Origin: Bradymonas sediminis
GTDB taxonomy: Bacteria > Myxococcota_A > Bradymonadia > Bradymonadales > Bradymonadaceae
Direction of reading: 5' to 3'
DNA: 64,000 nt
Assembly (NCBI RefSeq): GCF_003258315.1
Contig: NZ_CP030032.1
Location: 720,001-784,000, forward strand
Position 1 is the first letter of the stretch, and every line of letters starts with the position of its first letter. This document shows, one piece after another, positions 6,885-62,909 of the stretch. The notes beneath the pieces are model-generated. The model searched no databases. It was given only the letters and a program-made list of their open reading frames with translations, and was not told where the DNA came from. The translations under genes were made by a program, and so were the position numbers.

Positions 6885-6887
6885 GCG

Positions 6888-7688: not shown

Positions 7689-7694
7689 CAAATG

Positions 7695-7719
7695 TGCCGA
7701 CGGGCCGCGCCCGTCGGCA
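7695..7719 (+). terminator. Hairpin after the ferritin-like gene
   Basis: TGCCGACGGG (7695-7704) pairs perfectly with CCCGTCGGCA (7710-7719) around a 5-nt loop. No U tract follows, so it may be a weak terminator or mRNA 3' stabiliser. Confidence 0.5.
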
Positions 7720-7750
7720 TCACTGCTGAATCCCTATAAAATATTCCTAT

Positions 7751-8686: not shown

Positions 8687-8831
8687 GCCAGAGCGAGGCG
8701 CCTGCGCGTTTTTCCGAAATAAATAGCGCGCGCCGTTTGTTCTGGCACCAGATGAAGCGACTTGCGCTTCAGATATGATTTTTTCCGGACGTTCGAAATT
8801 TTCTGGGACGACCAAACCATAAGGAGGCTCA

Positions 8832-9299: not shown

Positions 9300-9350
9300 T
9301 CTTCGGTTCGCGCCAATTTGGCCTGCTTTCTGAGGCCGCGTAGAACGAAA

Positions 9351-9388
9351 AACGCCCTCATCGCAACCGCGATGAGGGCGTTTTTTTT
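9351..9388 (+). terminator. Strong intrinsic terminator after dps
   Basis: AACGCCCTCATCGC (9351-9364) pairs with GCGATGAGGGCGTT (9369-9382) around an AACC loop and runs into an eight-T tract. Confidence 0.93.
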
Positions 9389-9491
9389 GGCTCCAATCAC
9401 CGCCGCCCCCCGCCCACTCTCCCCTCAAACACGAGCATCCGGGCCAGCGCTCTCGAATACTGGCTAAGGCTGCCTTTGCGAGCGCGTAGAA

Positions 9492-9520
9492 TTGATTGCC
9501 AAGCCCGCAGATGCTAGACT
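9492..9520 (+). promoter_or_regulatory. Predicted sigma70 promoter of the 9575 lipoprotein gene
   Basis: TTGATT (9492-9497), a 17-nt spacer, then TAGACT (9515-9520) preceded by TGC, an extended -10 pattern. It lies 55 nt before the ATG at 9575. Confidence 0.5.
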
Positions 9521-9574
9521 TGGGACGAGATAGTCGACAACAATTGATAACGCTTAAAAACTGGTGAGAGCTAA

Positions 9575-11377
9575 ATGGCTTCTTTTCACTCAAAAATAAT
9601 GTTGTTTTTAATGGCGTTCGCCCTGGTTGGTACATCCCTTTACGGGTGTGGCGACGCGAAGGTGAGCACCACGGTCGACCAGTCTCGAAACGCCGACGAC
9701 GCGACCGCGCCGCGGCTCGACGACAAATATTTCATGGTCGCCGGTGGCGAGACCCATCTGATCGGTAATGTCACCGAGACGATCCCGCTGAAGGTCTTTT
9801 TATACGATAAAGTGACCGGCGCTCCGGCCCCGAATCAGATCATCGGCTACGAGATTTTGGAGCCGACCGCGGGCGATGAAGTCGCGTCGCTCTCTTCCTA
9901 TAACGGCACCACGCACGAAGAGGGCTCCGCGTCGATCGACCTGCGCCTGGGCGCCCAGCCCGCGACGCTGCGGGTGCGCGCGAGCCACGAGCTGTCGAAC
10001 GCGGTCGAATTTGACATCGACATTGAGGCGATGGACACCGGCGACCTCGAGATCACGTTGGTGAACTCGAGCCCGTCGGTGATGCGCCTGAGCAATATCG
10101 ACATTCGCCTCTACCGAAACTCCGAGATTAGCTGCGCACAATTTCATCCCTTCCGCGACCATGGCGTCCAGGAATTGGATATGCGCACCGCCGCTTCGAC
10201 CAGCGTGAAGCCGCTCTTCGAGAACCTCGGCACCCGCGAGCGCTTCGTGGTCACCGCGCGCGCTCAGGGTGACGCCGGTCAGATCGCGTCGGCCGGCTGC
10301 GTCGAAGACATCGTCATGGAATCCGACCGGGTCACCCGACGCGAGCTGCTGCTTCAACTCATCCCGCTCAACCCGGTGGGTCGCTACGACGTGACCAGCC
10401 ACTGGGACTTCAGCAACGCCCTGGCCGAGTCCGGCTCGGTGGGCTCCACGATCATGACCGTGCTCAATATCTTCGAGAACCCCGGGCAGGGGCTCTACGA
10501 CGGCATGATGGCGCTGATTCGCAACTTCGTCGGCGTGATCGGCGTGGGCGTTGACGCCTTTATGAACGTCACCGGTCTCGACGACGTGCTCATCAACGCG
10601 ATCAATACCGCAGTTGAGAATAACGATGCGCTGCGACGCATTCGCGACGCCGGGCGAGACTTGCGCGACGTCGTGGCGAACCTCGAAGTTCATAGCGAGC
10701 TGACCATCGGCAAGATGTTCTCGGATTACGAGTTCCGTGGCACCGATAACTGGTTGGGCATCACCCTCTATTGGCGCTGGAATTGTGACTCGAACTCGCC
10801 GGCCGATTGCGGCGCGATCAATATTCAGGCCGACGGCGAGGGTGACCTCGGCGAGCTGGGCGTGCTGAGCTCGGATTGGACCGGGCGAATCATCGCCTAC
10901 AACCAACTTCAGATTGACCGCCACCCGCTCTCGCTGCGCTACGGGCGCCTGATGATGTACGTGCTCAACCAGATCATCATCCCCGAGATCACCGGCGGCG
11001 AGTCGCACTCGCTGAGCGAAGCGTTCACCGGTTGGGTTTGTGGCGGCTTGGTCGGCTCGATCGCCGACAGCAATGGTGAGATTTGCGCCCCGGATCTTCT
11101 GGGCGGCAGTTGCTTCGACGCCGCTGGTGCGTGTGTGAGCGCGGTGTCGAGCGTCTTCGGTTTGGCCGATCTTCTGGTCAACGAATTGGAATATGATGTG
11201 GGCTTAAGCATCGCCGGTGAGGGCACGCTCATCGAGGTGACCTCCGATGGTATCGTCGACAGCATCACCAACGGCGTCTTCGAAGGCACCATGCGCACCA
11301 CCAGCGATTCCAACGGCAACGCCCAGGCCTCTGGTATCTCGGCCACCTGGGAGGGTGTCCGCGCGGATCAACAATGA
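9575..11377 (+). CDS. Large lipoprotein with N-terminal Ig-like domain
   Basis: A 600-aa predicted lipoprotein. The signal peptide ends at lipobox LYGC (Cys25). Residues about 50-155 form a beta-rich domain with the pattern of invasin/Big-type Ig folds (IPLKVFLYDKVTGAPAPN, ATLRVRASHELSN). A mid-domain has two conserved Cys, and a helical segment (around 290-370) is followed by another beta-rich C-terminal half. There is no catalytic motif that I recognise. A GGTGAGAG sequence precedes the ATG, and a promoter is predicted upstream. Likely an outer-membrane-anchored surface or periplasmic protein. A 15-bp perfect hairpin follows. Confidence 0.7.
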   Translation: MASFHSKIMLFLMAFALVGTSLYGCGDAKVSTTVDQSRNADDATAPRLDDKYFMVAGGETHLIGNVTETIPLKVFLYDKVTGAPAPNQIIGYEILEPTAGDEVASLSSYNGTTHEEGSASIDLRLGAQPATLRVRASHELSNAVEFDIDIEAMDTGDLEITLVNSSPSVMRLSNIDIRLYRNSEISCAQFHPFRDHGVQELDMRTAASTSVKPLFENLGTRERFVVTARAQGDAGQIASAGCVEDIVMESDRVTRRELLLQLIPLNPVGRYDVTSHWDFSNALAESGSVGSTIMTVLNIFENPGQGLYDGMMALIRNFVGVIGVGVDAFMNVTGLDDVLINAINTAVENNDALRRIRDAGRDLRDVVANLEVHSELTIGKMFSDYEFRGTDNWLGITLYWRWNCDSNSPADCGAINIQADGEGDLGELGVLSSDWTGRIIAYNQLQIDRHPLSLRYGRLMMYVLNQIIIPEITGGESHSLSEAFTGWVCGGLVGSIADSNGEICAPDLLGGSCFDAAGACVSAVSSVFGLADLLVNELEYDVGLSIAGEGTLIEVTSDGIVDSITNGVFEGTMRTTSDSNGNAQASGISATWEGVRADQQ

Positions 11378-48571: not shown

Positions 48572-49024
48572 CTATTCGATGCCGACCTTGCGGCGTCGAA
48601 TCATCGTGTGGACCCGCTCGGGGCGGCGTACCCAGGCGACAAAGGTCAGCAGGAGCAGCATGGTAAATGGGATCAGCGCGTAGATGGCCTCGCCGAAGAA
48701 TAGATGTGTGACGATTGCGCCGATCATGACCACGCCCAGGACGATGGCCGAGTAGAGCGCGGTGCTTGGGATGATCAGGAAGATCGCCGCGGTGGCTTCG
48801 ATCATCCCGATACCTTTGGCAAACCAGGTTGGGTATCCCCAGCGGGTAAACCCGGAGTCAAAGAGGCCGAGTTCGCCCAGCTTGGGCACCGACGCGCCCA
48901 GGAAGATGGTGGCGAGCAGCAGGATGATAAACCAGGTGCCTATGCGCTTGAGGGACCGGTTTGGGTAGACCTCGGGGCGGCCAATGAGGTCAGACGGGGG
49001 CGCGTTCAACGATGAGGATTCCAT
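48572..49024 (-). CDS. DoxX-like membrane protein
   Basis: 150 aa with four TMs (about 29-48, 68-90, 93-115, 118-137). The first begins with the family-like LATIFLGASVPKLGEL pattern, and GIGMIEATAAIFLIIP fits DoxX/DUF417-type helices. GGGAG upstream of ATG 49024 supports this start over the frame's 49114. Its role in the family (quinone or redox-linked) is poorly defined. It precedes the AI-2E permease on the same strand. Confidence 0.72.
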   Translation of the reverse strand: MESSSLNAPPSDLIGRPEVYPNRSLKRIGTWFIILLLATIFLGASVPKLGELGLFDSGFTRWGYPTWFAKGIGMIEATAAIFLIIPSTALYSAIVLGVVMIGAIVTHLFFGEAIYALIPFTMLLLLTFVAWVRRPERVHTMIRRRKVGIE

Positions 49025-49144
49025 GGTTCTTCTCCCGGGTTCGCTTCGCGAGGCCAATGCCAACCTGCACGGCCGGCGCGACGTCGATCGGTTACGTGCG
49101 TTCAATGGGTTCAATTTAAACGCCGCGCACGCGACTGCAATCGC

Positions 49145-51154
49145 CTAGAGCCTGCAGGCGCGCTTGAGGCTTCGCCCGTCGGCGGTGACTTGTTGCTCCT
49201 CTTCGATGGTGATGGAGGCGCAATTGGTGCTGTGAATCTTGGCCCCGGGCTCGATATGCATCCCGGCGCCGCCGCTAAAGCGCGTGGTCACGTTATTGAG
49301 GGTGGCCGAGACGAGGCCGAAATAGTCGTCGAACATCAGGTTGGCCGGCTCGGCGCCCTTGAAGGTGCGCGCGCTGCCGCCGTATTCGATAGTGACATGC
49401 TCGAAGGCGTTCTCGACGCTCGAGGTGTCGACCAGGTGAATGCCCTTCCAAAAGCCAGGCTGCTTGGTCTGGGCGGTGAAGATGATCGGTTTTTCGGCGG
49501 TGCCCCGCGCGGTGATGCGCGCCCGGAAGACCGAGATGCCGGCGCCCTCGGCGAAGACCAGTGTGACCCCCGGCTCCAGGATGAGGTGGGCGTCGTCGCG
49601 CACCAGGATGTCGGCGCGCACCAGGTAGTCGGCGTCGGTGGCGGGCCAGCTGGAGGTGACGCTGTCGAGGTTTGCGCCCATCACCTCGATGGTGCCTCGT
49701 GTGTCCGGGGCGGGTTTGGTCGGGGTGTCGACGGCGTTGGCGGCGGTGGCTGCGGCGTCATGGCCGTCGTCTTCGCCGGCGTCCGGGGCGTCGTCGAGGC
49801 TATTATTGGACTCGGCGGGCTGGGGCGTCGGCTTGCCGAATTTGGAGGCGTAGGAGCTCTGGGCGTCCAGGGCGCTCACCGCGCTGGGATCGAGCAGGGC
49901 GGCCGCGCGTTTATTATCGACAAGCTTATTATTGCCAAAGTCGAGGTCGACCTTTGCCTCGGCGTAGAGGCCGTAGCGCCCGCTGTGGGAGAGCTCGGTA
50001 TTGTTAATCTTCAGGCGCACCTTTCCGTAATAATCGTCGAGCATCAGGTTGGCCGGCTCGACCCCCTTAAAGGTCGGGTTGGCGCCGCCGTAGCGAATCG
50101 CGACGTGCTCCAGGACATTGTCGACGCTATTGCTGTCGATATACAAAATCCCCTTCCAATACCCCGGAATCTCGCTGAGCCCGGTGAAGACCACCGGGGC
50201 GTCCTTGTGGCCGCGGGCCGAGAAGCGCGAGCGAAATACTGAGATGCCCGTGTTCTCTGCGAATTTGAAGACGGCGCCCGGGGCGACTTCGACGAAGCTA
50301 TTCTCGGTGAGGTTGAGGTCGCCGGAGACGATATACGGCACCTTGAGCCCCGGCCAACTCAGGCGCTCGCCCACCAGGTTGGCCCCGCTGAGTTTGACCA
50401 GGTCGTTTTGATTGCCGGTGAAGTCGCTGTCGGCGTCGAGCTGGTTGAGGAATAGCGGGCTGAGGTAGGCGGCGCCTTTTTGGTTCTCGGTGAGGATGTT
50501 TTGGGCGAATTTACTGCGCGTATTTGCCTCGGCATAGAAGCCGTAGCCGGCGCTATTTCGCAGGGTAACCTCCGAGATGTCGACGCTGACTTTGCCATAA
50601 TAATCGTCGAGCATCAGGTTGGCCGGTTCGGTGCCCGCGAAGCCCGGGGTGGCGCCGCCGTATTCAATGATGACCTGGTGAAGGATATTTTTGGGGCCCG
50701 CCGAGTCCATGAATCGTACGCCCAGCCAACTTCCGGGCTCCTTTCGCTCACCGGTGAAGACGATGGGCGCGTCGGCGGTGCCGCGGGCGTGAAGCACGCC
50801 CTCATGCACGCTGAGGCCGGCGGCGTCGCCGAAGACGATTTTGACGCCCGGGTCCACGGTCAGCTCAACGTCGGTGCCCACGGTGAGCTGCTCGCTGACG
50901 GTATAGCAGCGGCCCAGGCCGGCTTTTAGGTGCACTGACTTTCGCAGCATCTCGGCGGTGAGCGCGGTGTTGCGGCGGCAGTCGACGGCCTGGGTGGCCG
51001 GGTCTTCGTCGGTGCGCTCGGCCCAGCAGGCGGGCAGCGCGGTGCTCAAGCTGAGCAGCAGCGCGGCGCTGATGCTCAGGTTGCGGCGCAGCGCGCGGCG
51101 CGTGCGGCCATCAAACGACCTCGAATCACCGAGTCCCCCGATAAATTGTGTCAT
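49145..51154 (-). CDS. Lipoprotein with three beta-helix repeat units
   Basis: 669 aa from ATG 51154 (GAGGAG upstream). A long basic N-terminus precedes a signal segment ending ALPAC (Cys43). Three ~170-190-aa repeats follow. Each has a PGVKIVF/PGAVFKF/PGVTLVF strand, ARGTADAPIVFTG-like strands, a W-G-I turn, an IEYGG element and the near-identical signature EPANLMLDDYYGKV (EPANLMFDDYFGLV in the third). This pattern is typical of right-handed parallel beta-helix proteins that bind or process polysaccharides. A Pro/Ala/Asp-rich linker separates repeats 2 and 3. No catalytic residues can be named. Last gene of the putative exopolysaccharide set, 37 nt after the YaiO-type gene. Confidence 0.8.
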   Translation of the reverse strand: MTQFIGGLGDSRSFDGRTRRALRRNLSISAALLLSLSTALPACWAERTDEDPATQAVDCRRNTALTAEMLRKSVHLKAGLGRCYTVSEQLTVGTDVELTVDPGVKIVFGDAAGLSVHEGVLHARGTADAPIVFTGERKEPGSWLGVRFMDSAGPKNILHQVIIEYGGATPGFAGTEPANLMLDDYYGKVSVDISEVTLRNSAGYGFYAEANTRSKFAQNILTENQKGAAYLSPLFLNQLDADSDFTGNQNDLVKLSGANLVGERLSWPGLKVPYIVSGDLNLTENSFVEVAPGAVFKFAENTGISVFRSRFSARGHKDAPVVFTGLSEIPGYWKGILYIDSNSVDNVLEHVAIRYGGANPTFKGVEPANLMLDDYYGKVRLKINNTELSHSGRYGLYAEAKVDLDFGNNKLVDNKRAAALLDPSAVSALDAQSSYASKFGKPTPQPAESNNSLDDAPDAGEDDGHDAAATAANAVDTPTKPAPDTRGTIEVMGANLDSVTSSWPATDADYLVRADILVRDDAHLILEPGVTLVFAEGAGISVFRARITARGTAEKPIIFTAQTKQPGFWKGIHLVDTSSVENAFEHVTIEYGGSARTFKGAEPANLMFDDYFGLVSATLNNVTTRFSGGAGMHIEPGAKIHSTNCASITIEEEQQVTADGRSLKRACRL

Positions 51155-51191
51155 GGTCTGCTCCTCTTTGTTGCGCAATAAAAATGAGTGC

Positions 51192-52583
51192 TCAGAGGCG
51201 AAATTCGTAGCCGCCGAGGACCTCGGTTTGGTCGTAATTTTGGGTGCCCGCGGAGTCGTGGCGCTGGGTCACCGCGATCAGGAGGCGGTGGTGAGAGGTG
51301 AGCATATAGCGAAAGCCCGCGGTCACCAGCCAATGCGACTCGGAGTTGATGTCGCGCGGCTCCAGGTAGTCACTTTTGCCGCCGCCACCGCCGCCGATAT
51401 AAAATTGTGTCAGGTTGCTAAAGAAGTAGAACGCGCGCCCGAGTCCCGAGTGGGCGACGGGATCGCCGTCGTCGGAGAAGGTCATAAAATAGCGCAATTC
51501 GAACATATAGGGCTTGATATAGATCTCGGCGTTGGCGTTGAGGACCTCGTTGGATTCATCGGGAAATTCGATATGCCAATAGCGCGCCGATGCCTGAAAA
51601 TACTCGAAGGACCAGCCGGCCTCGACCAGCGCGTTCCACTTGGGCGAGAAGATCGGGTCGATGGCGAAGCCGCCGCCGGCTTTGAAGAAGAGGCCGGAGT
51701 CAAATTTATAGTCGCCCCAGGCGTTGAAGCGCCAGTCGGCGGCGCGGTGGTCGAAGAAAGGGCGGTGCAGCCACTCCCAGGTGCCCATCAGGGTGAGGTT
51801 TCGCGAGAGTTCGCTGCCCACGTCGCCCCGCAGGCGCCAGCCGTCCAGGCGATTGATGATCCGGCTATAGCCGTAGAGAATATTTGCGTAGAGCTTGGGG
51901 TAGGAGTCCTCGGCGATTCCCTCGTGGGCCTTGCAGGCGTTGGTCGCCTCGGGGGCGATCTCGCAGGATTTCGCCAGGTCCTCGAGCGCTTTGGAGTCGT
52001 CGCCGGCGCCGCGGTGGGCCATCGCGCGTTTGTAGAGCACCAGGGGGTTGTCGGGGTCGGCCTCATCGTAGCGATTATACCACTCGATGGCCTCGTCGAA
52101 GGAGTCATCCCAGAGCAAGATATCGGCGCGAAGCCGCATCGCTTCGGGGCGCTCGTAGAGGTCTTCGGGGAGCGTCTCAAGGAGCTTTCGCGCCGCGTCG
52201 AGCTGGTCGGTCCAGGCGAGCAGCCGGGCTTTGAGAAGTTTGAGGTCGTTGCTGTCCGGGTAGTCCAGCAGCGCCTTGTCGACCCATGTGAGGGCTTCTT
52301 CGGAGTTGCCCTGGGCGGCCAGGGCGCGGGCGAGTTCGACCCAGGCGTCGGGGTTCCCCTGCTGCTCTTCGGTGCAGGCGCGCGCGGTCTTTTCGGCCTC
52401 GCTAAAACGGCGCTGCATGCGCAGGCCGCGCGCCGCCTCGACGCAGTCGACCTGGGGCCGGGCGCGCTCGGGCGGCGCCTCCAATTCTTCGCTCTCCTGG
52501 GCCGCCACCAATCTCGGCAGGGACAGGGCGAGCAGGAAGATGACCAGCATCAATAGCAATCGCATGGCAAGTTTTGAATTCAT
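51192..52583 (-). CDS. TPR protein with C-terminal YaiO-type outer-membrane beta-barrel
   Basis: 463 aa. The signal peptide is cleaved near LVAA/QE. TPR-like helices fill residues about 45-215 (AWVELARALAAQGNSEEALT, LKARLLAWTDQLDAARKLLE, AMAHRGAGDDSKALEDLAK). The last ~240 aa are amphipathic beta strands (YANILYGYSRI, GDVGSEL, FFKAGGGFAID, WHIEFPDESNE, LLIAVTQRHDS), ending GGYEFRL. The TPR-plus-barrel plan is that of PgaA/BcsC-like polysaccharide secretins in miniature and matches YaiO-family proteins. The ATG at 52583 has GGAG upstream. Likely the export channel of the neighbouring GT2 synthase. Confidence 0.85.
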   Translation of the reverse strand: MNSKLAMRLLLMLVIFLLALSLPRLVAAQESEELEAPPERARPQVDCVEAARGLRMQRRFSEAEKTARACTEEQQGNPDAWVELARALAAQGNSEEALTWVDKALLDYPDSNDLKLLKARLLAWTDQLDAARKLLETLPEDLYERPEAMRLRADILLWDDSFDEAIEWYNRYDEADPDNPLVLYKRAMAHRGAGDDSKALEDLAKSCEIAPEATNACKAHEGIAEDSYPKLYANILYGYSRIINRLDGWRLRGDVGSELSRNLTLMGTWEWLHRPFFDHRAADWRFNAWGDYKFDSGLFFKAGGGFAIDPIFSPKWNALVEAGWSFEYFQASARYWHIEFPDESNEVLNANAEIYIKPYMFELRYFMTFSDDGDPVAHSGLGRAFYFFSNLTQFYIGGGGGGKSDYLEPRDINSESHWLVTAGFRYMLTSHHRLLIAVTQRHDSAGTQNYDQTEVLGGYEFRL

Positions 52584-52661
52584 GCTCAGCTCCATCATCG
52601 GCACCGGGGCCGCGCATCGTCGCGTGTGTGTGCGATGCGCCGGCGTGCAATCAGCGGGCAC

Positions 52662-54062
52662 CTAAAAAGTCAGTGAGGGCGTCGTCGATGCACTAAAAAT
52701 CGGCGCATCTCGCCCGGTCGCCATCTCGCGCTCTAAAAAGAGAAACCACAGCGTCGGCGCGGCCGCTGCGTGCGTGGAAAATCCCGGCAGTTGAACCGTC
52801 GAATAGGGTATCCCCGGCGCGCCCGTGCAACTCAGGGCGATCCCGGTGCGCAACATCTTCTGCGCGGTCTCCGGGTCGCCAAGGCGGTGGGCGGCGATGC
52901 CCATGCCCATCGCACCCTCCACGAAGATATGATCGGCGGCGGCGTCCACATCGTAGCCGTCGATATCGTCTTCGTAGGGGCGAAATCCCTGGAGTTTAAG
53001 GGTCACCGGACCGTGCTTGGCGTGGCCCACCAGGAGGGCGCTGCTGGCGAAGGTCTCGCGGGAATACCGATAACTCTGGGCGGCGAGTTGGGGGTGTCCG
53101 GCCCCCAGAAGCCACAGGGCGCCCCAGGCGCCGGCGGCGTCGAGCGCCCGGCGGGTGTCGACGCGCTCGGCTCCCGCGGCGACCGCGAATCGCCCGGGGC
53201 GTTTGAGCCACAGCACGTCGAGCATTTGCTCGGCGAGGCGCTCGGCCTGCATGGGGAAGAAGCGGGCCAGGACGATATGCGCGTCGAATTGATGCTCGCT
53301 GACCGCGAAGCCGAGCTTGGGGCTCGGCGGGGCTTCCATCAGGGTGCTCGGCAGGCCGCGCCCGGCAGACACAAGCCCGCGCGTCGGGCCGCTGCCGCCA
53401 AGGCGCATGGACTCCAGAAAACGCGCGGCCCGCTGGGCGCTCAGCAGCGCCGCGGGCTCGCCAAATTGCGTGCCGAAATAGGCCAGCGCGTGCGCCGCCC
53501 AGGCGACCGCCCCGCTGCGAATATAGCGCGCGTGATGGTCCTGCGGGTTGTCCAGGTGAAAGCTATAGCCCCAGCTGCCGTCCTCTAATTGCAAGTAGCG
53601 CAGGGTCTGGGCGAGGGCGCGGGCCCGGCTATATTGCCCCTTCCAGGCGTACCAGAGCAGGGCCAGGGCGTTGTCGTAGAGATAGCTTCGCCGGGAGATG
53701 GAGGTGGTGGCCTGTGGGAAAGACAGCAGCGCCATCGCGGGCGCGCCGGGCAGGGACGCGGCCTGGTATTCGGCCAGCTGCAGCCAGTCCTCGGCGCGTT
53801 TTCGCGCCGTGCGATGTGTGTCTTGCATCGCGCGCTCCCTATGCGCTCGCCGCGTCGGGTTCTCGGAGGGGTCGGGCGCCTCGGCGTCGTTTAAGATCTG
53901 CATGAATCGCGGATCACAATCACGCGACTCCGGCTGCTGGTGATGGGCGGGACGGCTGGACGCGGTCGCGCGGTGGCAGCCCGCGCCGATGAGTCCTGCG
54001 GCGAGCATCACCAGCGCCGCAGCCATCGCGGACCGTGGCCAGGCTTTCGGTGGCATGCTCAT
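52662..54062 (-). CDS. Lipoprotein with alpha/alpha-toroid (glycosidase/lyase-like) domain
   Basis: 466 aa. The lipobox is IGAGC (Cys29). The mature part is a series of helical hairpins with conserved loops (DNALALLWYAWKGQYSRARA, LEDGSWGYSFHLDN, TRGLVSAGRGLPS, YDVDAAADHIFVEGAMGMGI, GIPYSTVQLPGFSTHAA) typical of (alpha/alpha)6 toroids of glycoside hydrolases, polysaccharide lyases or terpenoid-cyclase-like proteins. Asp/Glu residues in these loops could be catalytic but cannot be assigned. The start overlaps the GT2 stop by 4 nt (ATGA), so the two are co-translated. A periplasmic polysaccharide-trimming or -binding role is inferred. Confidence 0.75.
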   Translation of the reverse strand: MSMPPKAWPRSAMAAALVMLAAGLIGAGCHRATASSRPAHHQQPESRDCDPRFMQILNDAEAPDPSENPTRRAHRERAMQDTHRTARKRAEDWLQLAEYQAASLPGAPAMALLSFPQATTSISRRSYLYDNALALLWYAWKGQYSRARALAQTLRYLQLEDGSWGYSFHLDNPQDHHARYIRSGAVAWAAHALAYFGTQFGEPAALLSAQRAARFLESMRLGGSGPTRGLVSAGRGLPSTLMEAPPSPKLGFAVSEHQFDAHIVLARFFPMQAERLAEQMLDVLWLKRPGRFAVAAGAERVDTRRALDAAGAWGALWLLGAGHPQLAAQSYRYSRETFASSALLVGHAKHGPVTLKLQGFRPYEDDIDGYDVDAAADHIFVEGAMGMGIAAHRLGDPETAQKMLRTGIALSCTGAPGIPYSTVQLPGFSTHAAAAPTLWFLFLEREMATGRDAPIFSASTTPSLTF

Positions 54063-55561
54063 TCGCCACCGCCTGACGCGGCCTTCGACGACTCGGCCAG
54101 CGCCTCTGGGCCGCTCAGCTCCAGCATCTCCTGCGGGCTTGGGAGCGCCTCGACGCCCTCCTCGGAGTCCGGATGTCGCTCAAAGCCTTTGCGTGTCATT
54201 TTGCCCCATGATTTTTCCCCAACCATATATTTAACCAGCCCGCGGATGCGGAACCAAAGCGTGAGTTGGCGGTAGCCGAGGTTCTCGAAGACCGCCGCGG
54301 CGAGCAGTTTGAGCCGGGGTTTTGCGCCGCGAAAAAGGTTGAACCCCCAGTTGTCGATGAGCAGCGCCTGCACCGACATCATGGCGCCGAGCCAGAAGGC
54401 CGCGATCAGGAATAGAATCGCGAATTTCAGATCGACAAACCCAAAGATGAGTCCGGCGCCAAACCAGAAATACCCGAATAGCTCGATGACCGGCCCGAAG
54501 AGCTCGAACATCAGGTAGGCCGGGTAGACGACCAGGCCGACCGGGCCGTATTTGGGGTTGAGCATCATCGCCTTGTGGCGCCACATCGTGTCGGCCATGC
54601 CGCGGTGCCAGCGGTCGCGCTGGTTGCCCAGCAGCTCCAGGGTCTCGGGCGCCTCGGTATACGCGATGGGGTCGCTGATATGGATGATCTTTCGCGGCGG
54701 TTTTTCCTCCAGGATATGGCGCTGCAATTTGACCACGACCTCCATGTCTTCGCCGACCGAGTCGCGCGCGTAGCCGCCGACCGCCACGACCGCCTCGCGC
54801 TTAAAGAGCCCGAAGGCCCCGGAGATAATGAGGTTTCCGCCCAGGCGATTGAGGCCCATGCGGCCGAATAAGAAGCCGCGCAAATACTCGATGATCTGGA
54901 AGCGGGCGAGCCAGGATTTCGGGACGTCGACCTTCTGCAAAACCCCGTGGCGAAATTGGCAGCCGTTGGCCAGGCGCACCGTGCCGCCGACCGCGACCAC
55001 CCCGCGCGGGTCGTATAGGAAGGGCTCGACCATGCGCAAAAGCGCCTTGCGGGTGACGATGGTGTCGGCGTCGGCGCAGCAAATCAGTGGGAAGCGCGAG
55101 GTGTTGATGCCGACGTTGAGCGCGTCGGCCTTGCCGCCGTTTTCCTTGTCGACCACGAAGAGGCGCGCGTCTTTGCGGGATTGGTAGATCCCGCGAATCG
55201 CCTCGGTCTCGATCTCGCGGCGGATGATGAGGTCGACCTTCTCGAGGTCAAACTCCTCGACCAGCTTTTGCAGCGTCATGTCGGTGCTGCCGTCGTTGAC
55301 GACCAACACCTGGTGGTGGGGGTATTCGAGCTGCAAGAAGGCGCGCACCGAGTCGACGATGGTCTGCTCTTCGTTGAAGGCCGGGGCGATGACCGAGATG
55401 GGCGGGGTGCTGGCCTGGGCGAGCACCAGCGCGTCCAGTTCGGGGACCTGGCTGGCCTTTCGGCGCGCGATCTCAAAGACCGAGAAGATGATGAGGAGCC
55501 CATAAAATGCGTTGAGCCCAATAAAATAGCATAGAACAAAGATATCAACCCATTCTCTCAT
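54059..55561 (-). CDS. Processive GT2 polysaccharide synthase (PgaC/BcsA/HasA-like)
   Basis: 500 aa. An N-terminal TM (about 5-28) is followed by a GT-A domain with VIAPAFNEEQTIVDS, VVNDGST, NGGKADALN, CADADT (DxD), SGAFGLFKR, GEDMEVVVKL (catalytic ED) and NQRDRWHRG (QxxRW, the mark of processive synthases), then about four C-terminal TMs (320-345, 350-372, 378-400 and a weaker one). The cytoplasmic tail is acidic with no PilZ domain. It should polymerise and translocate a beta-linked polysaccharide across the inner membrane. The sugar (GlcNAc, Glc or other) cannot be read from sequence. Coupled to the toroid lipoprotein. Confidence 0.92.
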   Translation of the reverse strand: MREWVDIFVLCYFIGLNAFYGLLIIFSVFEIARRKASQVPELDALVLAQASTPPISVIAPAFNEEQTIVDSVRAFLQLEYPHHQVLVVNDGSTDMTLQKLVEEFDLEKVDLIIRREIETEAIRGIYQSRKDARLFVVDKENGGKADALNVGINTSRFPLICCADADTIVTRKALLRMVEPFLYDPRGVVAVGGTVRLANGCQFRHGVLQKVDVPKSWLARFQIIEYLRGFLFGRMGLNRLGGNLIISGAFGLFKREAVVAVGGYARDSVGEDMEVVVKLQRHILEEKPPRKIIHISDPIAYTEAPETLELLGNQRDRWHRGMADTMWRHKAMMLNPKYGPVGLVVYPAYLMFELFGPVIELFGYFWFGAGLIFGFVDLKFAILFLIAAFWLGAMMSVQALLIDNWGFNLFRGAKPRLKLLAAAVFENLGYRQLTLWFRIRGLVKYMVGEKSWGKMTRKGFERHPDSEEGVEALPSPQEMLELSGPEALAESSKAASGGGE

Positions 55562-55632
55562 ATCGAGTTACCCCCTGAAATTTTTGAAAGTCATCGCTCT
55601 CTAGAGAGAAAAATACGTGACGGAAAAATTGC

Positions 55633-56742
55633 TTAGACGGCGCGCTCCAGGAGGCGCTGGCTGCGCTGTAATTCCTGGGTGGCGGACTCGGCGGCGTAGC
55701 GGTCGTCGCAGTAGGCGGCGACGTGGTGGAGCTGCTCGGCGCCGGGTGCCCCGAGCATGCCGAGGGCGCCGGCGGCGTCCTGGCGCACCCAGAACGCGCG
55801 GTCCTTGAGCGCCTGGGCGAGGGGGGCGGCGGCGGCGGGCTCCTGGCGACGCCCGAGCGCGCGCGCCGCGCGGGCGCGCACCTGCCAGGTCGGGTCGTCC
55901 AGCGCGCTCAATAAGAGGTCGAAGCTCGGGCGCCCCTGCAGTGAGCCGGCCGCCTGGCAGGCGCCGATCCGGACCTCCATATCCTCGGAGCGCGCCGCCG
56001 GTGCGAGCAATTCGGACACGCCCTCAAGCCGCTGCTCGGCGGCCACCGTGAGTAAGAGTCGGCGCACCCGCCCGCACTCAAATTGCTGCCAGCGCGCGAA
56101 GACATAGCGAAGCGACTCCGGCGGGAGCTTGGAGAGCACCGCCTGCACGGGCTCCTCCATCATCTGAGAATAGAGGCGGGTGACCTGCAAAAGCGCGACG
56201 ATATCCTCGGGCTGGCCGACCCGGGCCAGGGTTTGCATGGCGAGGACCTGGGCCAGATACTCCGCGCCGGCCTGCTCGAGCAGCACGGGGCGGTCCTCGG
56301 CGCTGCCCAGGACGTAGAGCCTGCGAAGGGCGCGCAGCCGCTTCAGCGCATTTTTCGAGCGGCTCGCCGCGCGGTCTTGCTCGGCGTAGCCAAACTCGTG
56401 GTAGAGCACGATCAGCGCGTCGTAGGCGGCCCCTCGGGTGTGCAGCAGGACGCTGGCCAGAAAGTCCTGGACCAGCGAGGGCTCAAATTTCGCCGCCCGC
56501 TCCATCCACCCGCGCAATCGCTCGGGGGTGGGCTCGCCGAGGGCCTCAAAGAAGTCGTCCTCGAGGGCCTCCATGAATAGGCGCTTGGCGCGCCCCTGGC
56601 GCATCTGGCGGGCCGACTGAAAGATCATCCACGCGATCAGGGCGCCGACCACCACCAGCTCGGCTGCGATCAGAATGATCAGCCCACGGTACAGCGGCGT
56701 GGACCAGAGGATCTCCCAAAAAATAAGCAATGTTTCGGACAT
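55633..56742 (-). CDS. Membrane-anchored HEAT-repeat protein
   Basis: 369 aa from ATG 56742 (AGGAG upstream). A single N-terminal TM (about 18-42) is followed by an all-helical cytoplasmic domain. The last ~120 residues are clear HEAT repeats (VRIGACQAAGSLQGRPSFDL, WQVRARAARALGRRQEPAAA, WVRQDAAGALGMLGAPGAEQ). It lacks enzyme motifs. Placed between a response regulator and the GT2 synthase, it may scaffold or gate the synthase; that is inference. Spacing is 71 nt to the GT2 gene and 81 nt from the receiver gene. Confidence 0.8.
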   Translation of the reverse strand: MSETLLIFWEILWSTPLYRGLIILIAAELVVVGALIAWMIFQSARQMRQGRAKRLFMEALEDDFFEALGEPTPERLRGWMERAAKFEPSLVQDFLASVLLHTRGAAYDALIVLYHEFGYAEQDRAASRSKNALKRLRALRRLYVLGSAEDRPVLLEQAGAEYLAQVLAMQTLARVGQPEDIVALLQVTRLYSQMMEEPVQAVLSKLPPESLRYVFARWQQFECGRVRRLLLTVAAEQRLEGVSELLAPAARSEDMEVRIGACQAAGSLQGRPSFDLLLSALDDPTWQVRARAARALGRRQEPAAAAPLAQALKDRAFWVRQDAAGALGMLGAPGAEQLHHVAAYCDDRYAAESATQELQRSQRLLERAV

Positions 56743-56823
56743 CGAAACTCCTATTCGACCGACATGATGGCAGATCGCCATGGGGGCGAAACCAGTATTG
56801 TTGCGGCATACGGTCGATCAACA

Positions 56824-57291
56824 TCAGCACATATTCGGGCGTTTAAAGAGGCGGTCGATGCGGGCGATAAGAATCTCGGGGACCAGCGGTTTGTCGACGA
56901 AATCCTCGGCCCCCAGCTCAAAGGCGCGCAGCACGGGCTCGGACTGGGTCTGGGCGCTGATGACCACCGCCTTTGCGCGGCGGTCTTCGGGCAGATGCTC
57001 CAGCGCGTCGAGCAACTCGAAGCCGTTGATAAAGGCCAGGTTCAGGTCGAGCACGAAGAGGTCAAAGCGCTCGGTTTGCATCAACTCCAGCGCCTCTCGC
57101 CCGTCGGCGGCCTGGCAGACGAACCAGCCGCGGCGCTCAAAGGCGGTGCGTAGAATGCGCTGCACGACGGCGTCGCCGTCGGCGGTCAAGATGGACAGCG
57201 GGGTGTCTTCGCCCGGCTGGGGTGGGCGCGCGGCGGCGGCGCTGCCGGGCAAGGCCGGCGGCGCGCTGGGCATCTTCTGATCTTGCTTCAT
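56824..57291 (-). CDS. Stand-alone response-regulator receiver
   Basis: 155 aa. A Pro/Ala-rich N-terminal 28 aa precedes a single REC domain with Asp38/Asp40 in the acidic pocket (TADGD), phospho-acceptor Asp82 (LFVLDLN), Ser112 and Lys134 (FVDKPL). There is no output domain, so it likely signals by protein contact. No histidine kinase is adjacent. As first gene of the minus-strand exopolysaccharide set it probably regulates synthase activity; its likely contact is the HEAT-repeat protein. Confidence 0.88.
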   Translation of the reverse strand: MKQDQKMPSAPPALPGSAAAARPPQPGEDTPLSILTADGDAVVQRILRTAFERRGWFVCQAADGREALELMQTERFDLFVLDLNLAFINGFELLDALEHLPEDRRAKAVVISAQTQSEPVLRAFELGAEDFVDKPLVPEILIARIDRLFKRPNMC

Positions 57292-57481
57292 AAATTCATC
57301 TCCAAAAAGTGCTTTTAGGGGCAGTGGGGAATATCAGCACTGTTGGGGAGGGCTGCAAGGGGGGGCGGTGGGTTTGTGGGCGGCGAGCCCGGGCGGCGGG
57401 GCTTGGCGCTGGTTTGGGGGCGCTTAACTTGGGGGAGACGGGTGCGGTTGGCTTGGCGATATGATGATTTTGGGGGGATAA

Positions 57482-59758
57482 ATGGACCGGTTAAGGCGCT
57501 TAAATATCTGGGTAATGCTGATACTTTGCGGGTTTGTCGCGCTGAGCGCGCTGGGCTGTGAGGATATCGACCCGCAGAATCCGCCGATCCCGAATAATGA
57601 CCCGGGAGACCCGTTGGACGCCGGCACCCCGGCGGCCAGCGACCCGTGTAAGGGGGCGCAGATCTGTCGCCTGGATGAGTCGCCCGAGAAGTCCGGGACA
57701 CGGGTGCCGTTTAAGACCAATGAGGACTTCTTGATGGTGCGAAAGGGCGGCAATTGGCGCTCGATTTTCATCAAAGGCGTCAACCTCGGGGTCGGCGTGC
57801 CGGGGACGCGCGCCGGGCATCTGGCGGCCACCCGCGAGCAATACGCCCATTGGTTTGACCTGATGACCAAGAACGGGGTGAACGCGCTGCGCATCTATAC
57901 GCTGCACTATCCGCGTTTTTACGAAGAGTTGGCCAAACATAATAAAAAACACGCCGACAACCCGATTTATCTATTGCAGGGCATCTGGCTCGACGAGCAA
58001 TTTAAGGGGCTGGATCTTCTGACCGAGGATTTCGACTTTAATATCCGCGAGATGGTGGATTGCACCCGGGGGAATTGTCATATCAATCACCGCTACGGGC
58101 GCGCCTACGGCACCTTTGAGACGGATGTGTCGCAGTGGATCCTGGGGTGGGTGATCGGGCGCGAGGTGAACCCGGAGGAGATCGAGCGCACCAACGAGCA
58201 CCTCAACGACAGGACGAGCTTTGCCGGAAAGCATATCTCGGTCACCGACGCCCAGCCCTCCGAGGTGTGGTGGGGCGAGCGGGTGGATTATTTGATCGAA
58301 TATGAGCTCGAAGGCTACGGGCAGACGCGCCCCATCAGCGTGTCGAGTTGGCCCACGCTCGACCCCCTGGACCACACCACCGAGGGCAGCATTTATACCT
58401 CGGAGGATATCCAGAGCTTCGATATGTTGGAGCTCAAGCCGGTGGACGCCCCCGGCGGGCTCTTCGCGACCTTCCATGCCTATCCTTACTATCCCGACTT
58501 CATCGTCGACGACCCCGGGTTTCGCGAGCATTCGGATGCCGAGGGGCCGAATTCCTATATCGGGTATCTGCTCGACCTGAAGTCCCACTACGCCAAGATG
58601 CCGCTCTTTATCGGCGAGGTCGGGGTGCCGTCGAGCTGGGGCTCGGCGCATTGGGGGCACAAAGATATGAACCACGGCGGGCATACCGAGGTAGAGCAGG
58701 GAAAGGTCAACGGGCGGCTATTTCGCAGCGTCTATGACACCAACGGCGCCGGCGCGGCGGTGTTTGCCTGGATCGATGAGTGGTGGAAGCCGACCTGGAT
58801 TGCCGATGCGCGCGGCTCCGGCGAGGAGCGCCGGCCCTTCTGGCATAATATCTGCGCGCCGGAGCAAAATTACGGCCTGATCGCCTACGATCTTGGCGAG
58901 CCCGACTGGGCAAATCCCGGCAAGAGCACGGAGTCGTCGGGGTTTGTGACCAGGGTGTCGACCGTCGCGGACACCCAGTTTTTTCATGTGCGTTTAAACA
59001 CCCGCTCGGCCCTGAGCGGGTCGGATAAGATGGTGGTGGCCTTTGACACCTACGGGAGCAAGGACAGCCCGCAATTCGACAAGGAGCTCGGCGAGTCGGT
59101 GCTGCCAAACGGGGTGACCACGCAGAATCGAAACGAGTTCGCGCTCGTCATCAACGGCAGCGAGAGCGCGGAGCTGATGGTGACCTTTGCCTACGATAGC
59201 AAGCGCATCTGGCACGGCAGCCCCATCGAGGGGCAGGTCTACCACTCGACCCAGACCGACGGCGCGCCGTGGAATCTGGTGACCTGGATGAATAGTCAGG
59301 CGCATGGTTCCAACGACAAAGAGTTCTGGTTCGAAGAGACTTTTCACGAGATCGGCAAGCTGAAGATCCGGCGCGCGGGCGACCCGGCGACCAGCCACGA
59401 TGCGGTGGTTATCTACGATGACCATATCGACATTCGGATCCCCTGGACGCTGCTGAGCGTGACTGACCCGAGTCGCCTTGAGGTGTTGCACTCCAGCCCG
59501 AACGCCGCGCGTAAAGGGCGAAATTCCCGCGCGATCACCCGCGGCATCGCCATCGGCGTGACCTATAACGGGCAATTGCTGGTCGAGACCGACCGCTATA
59601 TCTGGGACACCTGGGGCGAGAACGAGAATATCTACGACATCCCGGGCTTTGAGTTTGACGAGGAGGTCGGGCCCGATTGGATGAAATACGAACGCATCAA
59701 ACCGACCATGCAGATATTTAAAGAGGCGCTCGACGCGTTGCCCGATTGGGTGGATTAG
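57482..59758 (+). CDS. Lipoprotein glycoside hydrolase, clan GH-A-like
   Basis: 758 aa with lipobox SALGC (Cys26). A TIM-barrel-like region (about 92-470) shows GH-A landmarks: a first strand IFIKGVNLGVG, LMTKNGVNALRIYTLHYP, strand 4 QWILGWVIGREVNPE with Glu228 as candidate acid/base (preceded by Arg instead of the usual Asn), FHAYPYYPDF on strand 6, and PLFIGEVGVPSSWG with Glu379 as candidate nucleophile. The C-terminal ~280 aa are beta-rich. A GGGGGG Shine-Dalgarno precedes the ATG. It is transcribed divergently from the GT2 synthase set, so it is a candidate hydrolase for the same polysaccharide. Confidence 0.8.
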   Translation: MDRLRRLNIWVMLILCGFVALSALGCEDIDPQNPPIPNNDPGDPLDAGTPAASDPCKGAQICRLDESPEKSGTRVPFKTNEDFLMVRKGGNWRSIFIKGVNLGVGVPGTRAGHLAATREQYAHWFDLMTKNGVNALRIYTLHYPRFYEELAKHNKKHADNPIYLLQGIWLDEQFKGLDLLTEDFDFNIREMVDCTRGNCHINHRYGRAYGTFETDVSQWILGWVIGREVNPEEIERTNEHLNDRTSFAGKHISVTDAQPSEVWWGERVDYLIEYELEGYGQTRPISVSSWPTLDPLDHTTEGSIYTSEDIQSFDMLELKPVDAPGGLFATFHAYPYYPDFIVDDPGFREHSDAEGPNSYIGYLLDLKSHYAKMPLFIGEVGVPSSWGSAHWGHKDMNHGGHTEVEQGKVNGRLFRSVYDTNGAGAAVFAWIDEWWKPTWIADARGSGEERRPFWHNICAPEQNYGLIAYDLGEPDWANPGKSTESSGFVTRVSTVADTQFFHVRLNTRSALSGSDKMVVAFDTYGSKDSPQFDKELGESVLPNGVTTQNRNEFALVINGSESAELMVTFAYDSKRIWHGSPIEGQVYHSTQTDGAPWNLVTWMNSQAHGSNDKEFWFEETFHEIGKLKIRRAGDPATSHDAVVIYDDHIDIRIPWTLLSVTDPSRLEVLHSSPNAARKGRNSRAITRGIAIGVTYNGQLLVETDRYIWDTWGENENIYDIPGFEFDEEVGPDWMKYERIKPTMQIFKEALDALPDWVD

Positions 59759-59840: not shown

Positions 59841-61451
59841 TTAGTGCACGCCGTGCATCCACCTATTGAGCAGCGGCGAGACGGCCAGGCACAGGACGCC
59901 GACGACCACCGAGATAAGGGCGATGGTGGTGAAGAGTTCGGTATAGATCGGCAGGGTCTCGACCGCCGACAAGGCGTTCATATCGGCGCCATCGGGGGCG
60001 CTGGCCAACTGGGCGAAGACCGAGGCGATATAGTTGGCGAAGGAGCTCGACAAGAACCACACGCCCATGATGACGCCGACGAGTTTGGGCGGCGACAGCT
60101 GCGTGATCTTCGACAAGCCGACCGGCGACATCGACAGCTCACCGGTGGTGTGCAGCAGGTAGCCGAGCATCAAAAAGCTCATCGGCACCAGGCCGGAGTC
60201 GCCGGCGAAAGCCGCGCTCCAGGACAGCAGGGCGAAGCCGGCGCTGACCTGCAAGAGGGCCAGGCCGAATTTGACCGGGGTGCGCGGCTCGAAACCCTTT
60301 TTGCTCAGCACCTGCCACATCCAGGCGAAGACCGGGGCGAGCAGGATGATATAGGCGGGGTTGGCGCTCTGGAACGCGGCGGCGGGGATCTCCCAGCCGA
60401 AGAACATCCGGTCGACGTTGCGCTCGGTGAACAGGGTCAGCGAGCTGCCGGCCTGCTCGAAGAAGGCCCAGAAGATCGTGCTGAAGAGGATAAGCGCGAG
60501 GATGACGAAAATCTGGTCGCGCTGGGCTTTCTCGGAGCGCGCCGCCAGGATGAGCATGCCGACGAGCACGAACGCGCCGATTCCCAGGAGCAGTGCCTGC
60601 ATAATGCCCTGGGCGCTGACGAGGATCGCGACCAGCGGGACCGCCAGGAAGGCGGTGATGTAGATGGTCGTCCCGAGTGAGATCCCCGGGGCGATTGGCC
60701 GATTCAGCAGCTCCAAATTCGTCGACTCGCCCTCGCCGTAGAGCCATTTTTGCAGCCCCATAAACACCGCGAGCCCCGCGACCATGCCGAGCGCAGCCAG
60801 GCCGAAGCCGTAGTGCCAGCCCCATTTGGCCGCCACCCAACTGCACAGGATGCCGGAGATAAAGGCGCCCAGGTTGATGCCCATATAGAAGATCGTAAAC
60901 CCGCCGTCGCGTTTGCTGTCGGAGGCCTCCTCGGCGTCGTAGAGCTTGCCGACCATGGTGGAGATATTGGGCTTGAAGAAGCCGTTGCCGATGATCAGAA
61001 AGGAGAGCGCGGTATAGAGGAAATACGAGGTGTTGATATCATAACTCGCCCCGCCCAGGACCACGGCGAGTTGCGTGGCGCCGTCTTTGGTCGCTGCGAT
61101 CCCCAGAAGATTGAAGATCGCGAGCAATGAGGTCTGGTCGATCGCCATGGCCGCGTGGCCAAAGACCATCAGCACCCCGCCCAAAATAACGGCGCGCTTT
61201 GCGCCCAGGACCTGGTCGGCCAGCAAGCCGCCGATCAGCGGGGTCGCGTAGACGAGGGCGGTGTAGGAGCCGTAGATCCCCACGGATTTTGCGTCCGAAA
61301 ACAGCAGCGCCTGCACCATATAAAGCGTGAGCAGCGCGCGCATGCCGTAATAGCTAAACCGCTCCCACATCTCGGTAAAAAATAGGACAAATAGGCCGGC
61401 GGGGTGGCCGAAAAAGTGTTTCCGCCGGTTTGCATAAGTTGCATCGGTCAT
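59841..61451 (-). CDS. POT/PTR2-family proton-dependent peptide transporter
   Basis: 536-aa inner-membrane MFS protein with 12-14 predicted TMs. The family signature EMWERFSYYGMRALL (ExxERFxYYG, proton coupling) is near the N-terminus, with GNGFFKPNISTMVG and FTIFYMGINLGAF (the PTR2 second signature) following. It imports di-/tripeptides with protons. Candidates DtpA-D or DtpT cannot be told apart. Lone gene; the facing terminator separates it from the glycosidase gene. Confidence 0.93.
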   Translation of the reverse strand: MTDATYANRRKHFFGHPAGLFVLFFTEMWERFSYYGMRALLTLYMVQALLFSDAKSVGIYGSYTALVYATPLIGGLLADQVLGAKRAVILGGVLMVFGHAAMAIDQTSLLAIFNLLGIAATKDGATQLAVVLGGASYDINTSYFLYTALSFLIIGNGFFKPNISTMVGKLYDAEEASDSKRDGGFTIFYMGINLGAFISGILCSWVAAKWGWHYGFGLAALGMVAGLAVFMGLQKWLYGEGESTNLELLNRPIAPGISLGTTIYITAFLAVPLVAILVSAQGIMQALLLGIGAFVLVGMLILAARSEKAQRDQIFVILALILFSTIFWAFFEQAGSSLTLFTERNVDRMFFGWEIPAAAFQSANPAYIILLAPVFAWMWQVLSKKGFEPRTPVKFGLALLQVSAGFALLSWSAAFAGDSGLVPMSFLMLGYLLHTTGELSMSPVGLSKITQLSPPKLVGVIMGVWFLSSSFANYIASVFAQLASAPDGADMNALSAVETLPIYTELFTTIALISVVVGVLCLAVSPLLNRWMHGVH

Positions 61452-61685
61452 CGCAAGAAACCTCTTGAAAGTTCTGAACTCGCAGGGTGTTAGAGCATTT
61501 TTGTGCCGAGGTCTAGTTTCACGTGCTCGGGCTGGGCCCAGCCGAGGGGGGAAAAAATACCGGCACCGAAATGGAACCGCGAGGGCGATGGCGTTGTCTA
61601 TCTATTTGTGACGAAATTTGGGAGTCGCGGGGATGCGTTTACCTTAGGTCTGGCATTGATTTTTCCGTGCACATTGAGGTCTCGA

Positions 61686-62909
61686 ATGAGCTCGAAACGG
61701 AATAAAGGACGAAATCGGAAAGAAGGGCGCCGACGGTTTTTGAATGAACTTTCGGCCTCGGCGGTGGCGCGCGATCCGCGGGACGCCGAGTATAAGGAGG
61801 GGTTTTTCCGCGATATCGTGGAGCACAACCCTGACCTGATCTTGTGCGTCGCCCCGGATGGTGTGATTCACTACGCGAACCCGGCATTTTGGGGGCTTGT
61901 AAAGCGGGACTCCGGCCGGGGGGCCAATTTTATGAAGTCGCTATCGATCGAGTCCCGCGGGATTTTTTTGGCGGCGGCCGAGGAGTTAAGCCGGGGCGGG
62001 GACACCGAGCGGGTTGAGCTGCTCCTGTGGGATACGCATAAGCAGGCGCACCCGGTTGAGGCGCATATTAACGCTCATTTCGACGGGGAGACGGTCACGT
62101 GGTTTCGCGTGGTGTTGCGCATGCAGCCGGTGATTGAGGGCGCCGCGGCCCCGGTCGACGAGACCCCGCGCATCCTGGTGGTCGAGGATGACCCGGTCAG
62201 CGCGCGCATGCTCTCGCGGATGTTGGAGAATGGGGGCTTTGAAACCGAATGGGCGGCCACGGCTGCCGCCGCCATTGAGATGCTCTCCGAGGATTATTAT
62301 GACGCGATGACCCTGGACCTGATGCTGCCGGACCGCAACGGGCTCGACCTATTGCGCGAGATTCGCGCCGACGCCGAGACCGAGGAGATGCCGGTGATCG
62401 TGGTGTCGGCGTCGGCCGATAAGACCCGGGATTCGCTCAGCGGAGACGCGGCCTATGTGGTCGACTGGCTCAATAAACCCTTCGACCCAGGCGCCCTGCA
62501 GAGCGCCATGGCCGGCGCGATCCGCAACGATAAGGAACGCCTGCCTCGGGTGCTTCACGTCGAAGCCGACGACGCGTTCTTTGAGCAAGTAAGCCAGACC
62601 CTGCTCGGCAGCGCCGGGATCGACCGGGCCCGCACGCTCGGCGAGGCCCGCAAGATGCTGCAAGACAACGATGATTATGACCTCGTGCTGCTCGGGCTCA
62701 ACCTGCCCGACGGGTTCGGCGCCGAGCTGCTGCCATTTTTGAACCGCCCGCGCGGCCGCTCGGTCCCGGTGATCCTGGTCTCCTCGGATGAGGCCGTCGA
62801 CGCGCTCTCCTCGCATGTCGCCGATACCCTGAACAAATCGCACGCCACCCAGCAGCAGATGCTCGAGACCATCCGCGCTCACCTGCGCCCATCGCCGCCT
62901 GCGCATTAA
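61686..62909 (+). CDS. PAS-REC-REC regulator with a degenerate second receiver
   Basis: 407 aa from ATG 61686 (GAGG upstream). A Lys/Arg-rich N-terminus (1-20), then a PAS domain (about 38-145: DIVEHNPDLILCVAPDGVIH), REC1 (about 162-280) with Asp168/169, phospho-acceptor Asp211 (TLDLMLPDRNG) and Lys264 (LNKPF), and REC2 (about 288-400) reading LVLLGLNLPDG, so Gly337 replaces the acceptor Asp while Lys384 is retained. No DNA-binding or enzymatic output domain. Divergent from the POT gene. REC2 probably binds partners constitutively. Confidence 0.88.
   Translation: MSSKRNKGRNRKEGRRRFLNELSASAVARDPRDAEYKEGFFRDIVEHNPDLILCVAPDGVIHYANPAFWGLVKRDSGRGANFMKSLSIESRGIFLAAAEELSRGGDTERVELLLWDTHKQAHPVEAHINAHFDGETVTWFRVVLRMQPVIEGAAAPVDETPRILVVEDDPVSARMLSRMLENGGFETEWAATAAAAIEMLSEDYYDAMTLDLMLPDRNGLDLLREIRADAETEEMPVIVVSASADKTRDSLSGDAAYVVDWLNKPFDPGALQSAMAGAIRNDKERLPRVLHVEADDAFFEQVSQTLLGSAGIDRARTLGEARKMLQDNDDYDLVLLGLNLPDGFGAELLPFLNRPRGRSVPVILVSSDEAVDALSSHVADTLNKSHATQQQMLETIRAHLRPSPPAH

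Follow-up and report, generated by a model that had tools for sequence, protein, structure and literature searches.

A candidate synthase-dependent polysaccharide system with a HEAT-repeat partner protein in Bradymonas sediminis

Introduction

Synthase-dependent exopolysaccharide systems have been surveyed for five polymers, and a c-di-GMP-binding subunit is typical of them (PMC7112194). PgaABCD/IcaADBC combines a GT2-class synthase with export through a TPR protein and barrel and with a periplasmic glycosidase-fold protein, and Bcs similarly unites a GT2 synthase, a periplasmic hydrolase (BcsZ), and TPR-barrel export (BcsC). We analyzed a 64,000-nucleotide stretch of Bradymonas sediminis DNA (the window) from a genome assembled as a single contig of 5.05 Mb (G000). 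A first-pass annotation of the window had proposed that seven of its genes form an undescribed, envelope-spanning exopolysaccharide machine with Pga/Bcs-like logic, and the synthase, the periplasmic enzyme folds, and the TPR-barrel exporter that this logic calls for are all present. Taken as a whole, the locus probably encodes a synthase-dependent polysaccharide system that belongs to a family apparently not described before, in which a HEAT-repeat protein would partner the synthase and a response-regulator receiver would control it.

Gene organization of the locus

All seven open reading frames were found where the first-pass annotation had placed them (Table 1). Six are on the minus strand: receiver, HEAT, GT2, toroid, TPR-YaiO, and beta-helix, in that order. 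The tight spacing that had been put forward as a sign of a single unit is borne out by short gaps and by a 4-nt overlap between the GT2 and toroid genes (54059-54062). Comparison with homologues suggests start codons later than the longest reading frames for the HEAT gene (frame extending to 56781), the YaiO gene (to 52661), and the beta-helix gene (49145-51178). A promoter and terminator scan gave nothing beyond chance, and the divergent region between the receiver and GH genes held no above-chance consensus promoter.

Table 1. Features of the gene block, in window coordinates
Feature	Position	Strand	Basis
Stand-alone receiver (response regulator)	56824..57291	-	Pfam Response_reg 3.3e-21
HEAT-repeat protein, one N-terminal TM	55633..56742	-	Pfam HEAT_2 6.7e-17
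GT2 membrane glycosyltransferase, putative processive synthase	54059..55561	-	Pfam Glycos_transf_2 3.3e-19
(alpha/alpha)6 toroid lipoprotein, putative periplasmic glycoside hydrolase/lyase/epimerase	52662..54062	-	AlphaFold2 pLDDT 82
TPR + YaiO-type outer-membrane beta-barrel, putative export part	51192..~52583	-	Pfam TPR, YaiO PF19413 2.4e-8
Right-handed beta-helix-type lipoprotein, three internal repeats	49145..~51154	-	Pfam Beta_helix 2.2e-5, just under cut-off
GH-A-fold lipoprotein, beta-rich C-terminal region, putative glycan hydrolase/transglycosylase	57482..59758	+, divergent	structure search
Intergenic region of 190 bp separating the divergent receiver and GH genes, likely control region	57292..57481	.	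gene positions

The block has further neighbors. A POT-family transporter gene (59841-61451) adjoins the GH gene and also lies near GH in another Myxococcota genome, G010. Past it, the product of 61503-62909 combines a PAS domain with two receivers and is a possible but unproven signaling link to the cluster. At the other end, a DoxX-family gene (48572-49114) follows the beta-helix gene by 30 bases on the same strand; it is not kept beside the beta-helix gene in G010.

The GT2 synthase

The GT2 protein has the features of an inner-membrane synthase: in addition to the Pfam match, D90, DAD164-166, ED271-272, and QRxRW314-318 are invariant in an alignment of 12 homologues. The first-pass annotation had called it a processive enzyme with QxxRW, ED, and several TMs; the motifs hold, whereas simple hydropathy gives only three clear TM segments. 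The closest NCBIfam model is PgaC_IcaA, at 125.6 bits against a cut-off of 422.3, followed by an exosortase-linked glycosyltransferase and cellulose synthase, all far under their cut-offs (61.6 bits against 699 for CelA). The protein shares 29% identity with E. coli PgaC and, over 277 residues, 21% with E. coli BcsA. In a tree with E. coli PgaC, BcsA, NfrB, and YaiP for comparison, whose branches are long, 60 GT2s from the loci described here form one group (94/90) apart from those four.

When the seven proteins were compared with Pfam and NCBIfam, none contained a PilZ, BcsB, PgaB, or PgaD domain, as the first-pass annotation had held, nor did any contain the polysaccharide deacetylase domain of PgaB/IcaB. 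Where a c-di-GMP-binding domain or co-polymerase would be expected, the block has the HEAT protein and the receiver. Membership in Pga was rejected on the scores above, as was membership in Bcs, given the CelA score and the missing PilZ and BcsB matches.

A divergent form of the PNAG system (Pga/Ica), with PgaB, PgaD, and PgaA replaced, would account for PgaC_IcaA being the closest curated synthase model, for export through a TPR-barrel, for a GH-A-fold protein that recalls the PgaB hydrolase domain, and for the amino-sugar genes that adjoin some copies. It is nevertheless quite improbable, given the gap between score and cut-off, the level of identity to PgaC, a window cluster with neither a deacetylase nor a PgaD-like subunit, and the placement of the GT2 group apart from PgaC, albeit with long branches. 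The window TPR-barrel is of the YaiO type and scores 29.4 bits with the PgaA model (cut-off, 366.65), which found nothing over its cut-off in G000 or in three other genomes (G010, G006, and G343).

The QxxRW motif is shared by some lipid glycosyltransferases that are not processive, including ones with few TM segments, so polymerization cannot be proved by motif. The GT2 could accordingly be non-processive and make a lipid-linked sugar or glycolipid, in which case the GH and toroid proteins would act on envelope glycans and YaiO would have another outer-membrane role. We regard this as unlikely, since, among curated families, PNAG and cellulose synthases come closest; the distribution of the other genes, given below, also bears on it. 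A processive synthase remains our preferred assignment.

Several relatives have unusual architectures. In one Myxococcota family, a domain of about 370 residues with no Pfam match is fused C-terminally to GT2, giving proteins of about 830 aa (L014, L016, L075, L076, L078, and other f12 loci). Elsewhere the same domain is encoded by a separate gene after GT2 or, in Paenibacillus, is fused ahead of a GH-A-like domain (L024:8202-9332; L069:9755-11101; L087:2746-5847); it is a further component of the family. One genome (G038; L026:3082-10170) encodes a 2362-aa open reading frame in which GT2 occupies only a C-terminal portion (2009-2281), with about 2,000 residues lacking any Pfam match.

The HEAT partner and the receiver

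Of 62 loci, drawn from six phyla and two domains of life, 61 have a HEAT gene next to GT2, and the two genes invariably share a strand. The DNA flanking the cores, 552 kb in all, gave no unrelated HEAT match; three matches that seemed distant were long HEAT proteins encoded by these very clusters. Hydropathy places a TM segment at residues 22-40 of the window protein, and because basic residues follow it, the positive-inside rule predicts cytoplasmic HEAT repeats. The sole full GT2 locus that lacks a HEAT gene (L077 in G134, 6123-10611) instead has an FHA-domain protein adjoining GT2, together with a lipoprotein-like protein of 698 aa that matches no Pfam model; the HEAT partner has possibly been replaced here. 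The same genome carries a second, HEAT-paired GT2 copy (L078).

Aligned with receivers of related loci, the window receiver has the phospho-acceptor Asp (VLDLNL) and the conserved Lys (DKP). A receiver gene lies within 4.5 kb of GT2 on the same strand in 21 of the 62 loci, including all three haloarchaeal ones, and is absent from the large f12 group. With linkage in only about one-third of loci and none in f12, the receiver is not essential across the whole family. Judging by the near-universal HEAT-GT2 pairing and the frequent linkage of the receiver, the HEAT protein and receiver may with good reason be taken to stand in for c-di-GMP parts. A precedent makes receiver control plausible: in Myxococcus xanthus, the receiver EpsW is reported to activate the polysaccharide enzyme EpsZ by direct contact (PMC12802240).

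Periplasmic and outer-membrane components

Neither the toroid nor the GH protein matches any Pfam or NCBIfam model. Because profile searches of the PDB with alignments of the two proteins gave only chance-level matches, their folds were assigned by structure search with AlphaFold2 models. For the toroid protein (model pLDDT 82), the best match was MmpH (7qsj; VIA Z 29.8, rmsd 3.1, 308 residues), and others were (alpha/alpha)6 glycosidases and sugar 2-epimerases. All 28 aligned sequences share D130, E256, H257, D260, D308, and E382. On this model the protein has an (alpha/alpha)6 barrel fold, in agreement with the toroid lipoprotein of the first-pass annotation, and is a putative enzyme.

The divergent GH-A lipoprotein also named there finds support that is less firm: its model, of low confidence (pLDDT 53), matches the clan GH-A folds GH157, GH5, and GH2 with VIA Z of about 17. 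Given the poor model, no GH family is named. Clan members have a (beta/alpha)8 fold with catalytic glutamates on strands 4 and 7; here the expected pair would be E228 (GxE) and E379 (near GEVGVPSS), which are kept in eight of nine homologues, the exception being the Planococcus protein, where both are lost. With their lipoprotein-like signal peptides, the toroid and GH-A proteins are putative periplasmic modifying or hydrolyzing enzymes. They represent two unclassified carbohydrate-enzyme families that are ready targets for biochemistry.

The proposed exporter joins TPRs to an outer-membrane barrel within one protein. As the first-pass annotation had it, the barrel is of the YaiO family (PF19413, 34.6 bits against a cut-off of 23.9), although the score with TIGR04390 falls just below that model's cut-off (29.4 versus 32 bits).

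Among all fetched loci, a homologue of the beta-helix protein was found only in G010, so that with the window just two loci have it. The lipoprotein gene is present as first described, but the protein was rejected as a core part of the conserved machine; by its distribution, it is best classed as a lineage-specific neighbor.

Conservation in Myxococcota

The whole block is syntenic and in the same order in G010, with identities of 82% for GT2, 64% for GH, 63% for YaiO, 61% for beta-helix, 58% for HEAT, and 51% for toroid. Most of it recurs in G006, G002, and G014, where GH is divergent from HEAT-GT2-toroid and YaiO comes next wherever the contig continues. G014 also has a second, simpler HEAT-GT2-YaiO copy; in this genome with two GT2 copies, a second GH-A-fold copy sits on a short contig (G014:C94, L138). 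A scan of genome contigs yielded four loci, all Myxococcota-like.

Across an even sample of the phylum, GT2 was detected in 54 of 379 genomes, or about one in seven; the scans scored the best few candidates per genome, and many of the loci belong to genomes that are related or incompletely assembled. Within the class of the window, 14 of 57 genomes are positive, and the distribution is patchy even in the window's own family. Profile searches placed the toroid in 32 genomes, every one of them GT2-positive, and GH-A in 27, of which 26 were GT2-positive; in the exception (G017), the GH is a fragment cut by the contig end. GH is often unlinked and still tracks GT2, as in G343 (GT2 at 5.42 Mb, GH at 6.04 Mb). 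Hypergeometric p values for co-occurrence with GT2, uncorrected for relatedness, are about 2e-32 (toroid) and 4e-24 (GH) by genome and 1e-20 and about 2e-12, respectively, by genus. The toroid association extends over seven families and that of GH over five.

The co-occurrence survey that the first-pass annotation had called for therefore shows GT2, HEAT, YaiO, and toroid, and GH as well, to be co-conserved far beyond the strain. With this co-occurrence and the synteny in relatives, the grouping is not accidental. That two separate glycosidase-fold families track GT2 across the phylum speaks against a non-processive GT2. It also bears on whether the block is a set of separate neighboring functions, namely a two-gene HEAT-GT2 unit beside unrelated secreted enzymes and surface proteins. 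The lineage-specific beta-helix gene and the many loci without toroid or GH would suit such an arrangement, which is very improbable given how closely both families keep to GT2-positive genomes, even with GH unlinked. A role in predation, also suggested initially, is not supported: the patchy distribution of GT2 in the class speaks against it. The Bradymonabacteria papers that we searched do not discuss a matrix polysaccharide.

Distribution beyond the phylum

Outside Myxococcota, a tblastn search of plasmid records with GT2, which is not a census, returned relatives with 30-44% identity. These come from haloarchaea (Haloarcula, Salinirubellus, and Halosolutus), Bacillota (Paenibacillus and Planococcus), Deinococcus, Bacteroidota (Emticicia and Bacteroides), Alphaproteobacteria (Mesorhizobium, Erythrobacter, and Devosia), and Legionella. 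In the plasmid loci, the HEAT gene directly precedes GT2, and in many a receiver precedes HEAT. Of 57 diderm loci, 51 encode a TPR/YaiO protein, whereas none of the five archaeal or Bacillota loci does. This restriction to diderms matches the expectation for an outer-membrane exporter, and the presence of a TPR-barrel in most diderm loci is a further point against a non-processive GT2. GH occurs in 9 of 62 loci, among them those of Paenibacillus, Planococcus, and Deinococcus, where it is fused to TPRs; many of the 62 lack the toroid and GH genes.

The smallest archaeal clusters consist of receiver, HEAT, and GT2 only, a content that a GT2 making a lipid-linked product would also fit. On our preferred reading, this smallest form suggests that the three proteins are the polymerizing and control unit and that TPR-YaiO is a diderm export add-on. 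The first-pass annotation understated the reach of the system: because the core is also found in haloarchaea and Bacillota, which lack an outer membrane, the envelope-spanning part would be an addition to it.

Neighboring genes offer hints of the sugar donor. The Halosolutus copy is adjoined by glmS and an archaeal-glmU-like gene, and genes for a TviB/TviC-like UDP-GlcNAc dehydrogenase and epimerase surround the Legionella copy; at least in those copies, the neighbors may point to N-acetylhexosamine-type donors.

Other plasmid loci merit mention. One Haloarcula halophila plasmid (NZ_CP119560.1) carries two copies of the receiver-HEAT-GT2 unit together with its surroundings (L082 and L131); most genes have identical protein accessions in both, indicating recent duplication. 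On an Erythrobacter aureus plasmid, receiver-TPR-HEAT-GT2 is embedded in a cluster of flagellar genes, not far from a gene for a PilZ-domain protein (L084, 1-15227). In the Gram-positive Planococcus maritimus, a plasmid cluster reads polyphosphate polymerase-DUF4956-CotH-GH-like-HEAT-GT2 (L089, 807-8242).

Proposed function

The best reading of these data is a c-di-GMP-independent exopolysaccharide system whose constant core is HEAT and GT2, often with a receiver. GT2 would work at the cytoplasmic face, joining units of an activated sugar (most probably a UDP-N-acetylhexosamine or one of its derivatives) into a chain that it would move through the inner membrane. The HEAT protein would be an obligate partner or activator of the synthase, and the phosphorylated receiver would act on the HEAT-GT2 pair post-translationally, in the place taken by c-di-GMP domains in Bcs and Pga. 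The toroid and GH-A lipoproteins may trim or rearrange the polymer in the periplasm, from which the TPR-YaiO protein would carry it across the outer membrane. More tentatively, and with somewhat less than an even chance of being right in full, we propose a synthase family of bacteria and archaea in which HEAT is an obligate partner, phosphorylated receivers rather than c-di-GMP switch synthesis on, TPR-YaiO was added in diderms, and toroid, GH-A, and the fused domain were added in many lineages. The presence of the family in about one-seventh of sampled Myxococcota genomes, in archaea, and in Gram-positives, with no c-di-GMP part seen, points to an unstudied matrix polymer and to a way of controlling synthases different from c-di-GMP.

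Comparison with known systems

Beyond Pga and Bcs, four described loci resemble the cluster in part. E. coli NfrA/NfrB likewise pairs an inner-membrane GT2 with an outer-membrane secretion partner. NfrB, however, is c-di-GMP-activated according to its annotation, its similarity to the cluster GT2 is barely detectable (E 0.002), and no HEAT, receiver, GH, or toroid gene adjoins it; membership in Nfr was rejected on scores. At E. coli yaiO-yaiP-yaiS, a YaiO barrel gene is again near a GT2 gene. YaiP is 27% identical to the cluster GT2 over 231 residues, but the locus has no HEAT gene, and the YaiO proteins of E. coli and the cluster show no BLAST similarity. EpsW-EpsZ shares control of polysaccharide synthesis by a single-domain receiver after translation, and differs in that its target, a phosphoglycosyl transferase, belongs to a Wzx/Wzy pathway (PMC12802240). 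Our search of the openly accessible literature returned no description of a HEAT-GT2-YaiO system, in keeping with the first-pass view that the system is undescribed; the one similar gene list is that of Clostridium perfringens NELoc-2, which comprises a HEAT-repeat protein, a glycosyltransferase, CotH, and a polyphosphate polymerase (PMC11677781). In gene content this list resembles the Planococcus cluster, and NELoc-2 probably represents a branch of the HEAT-GT2 family that was noticed earlier.
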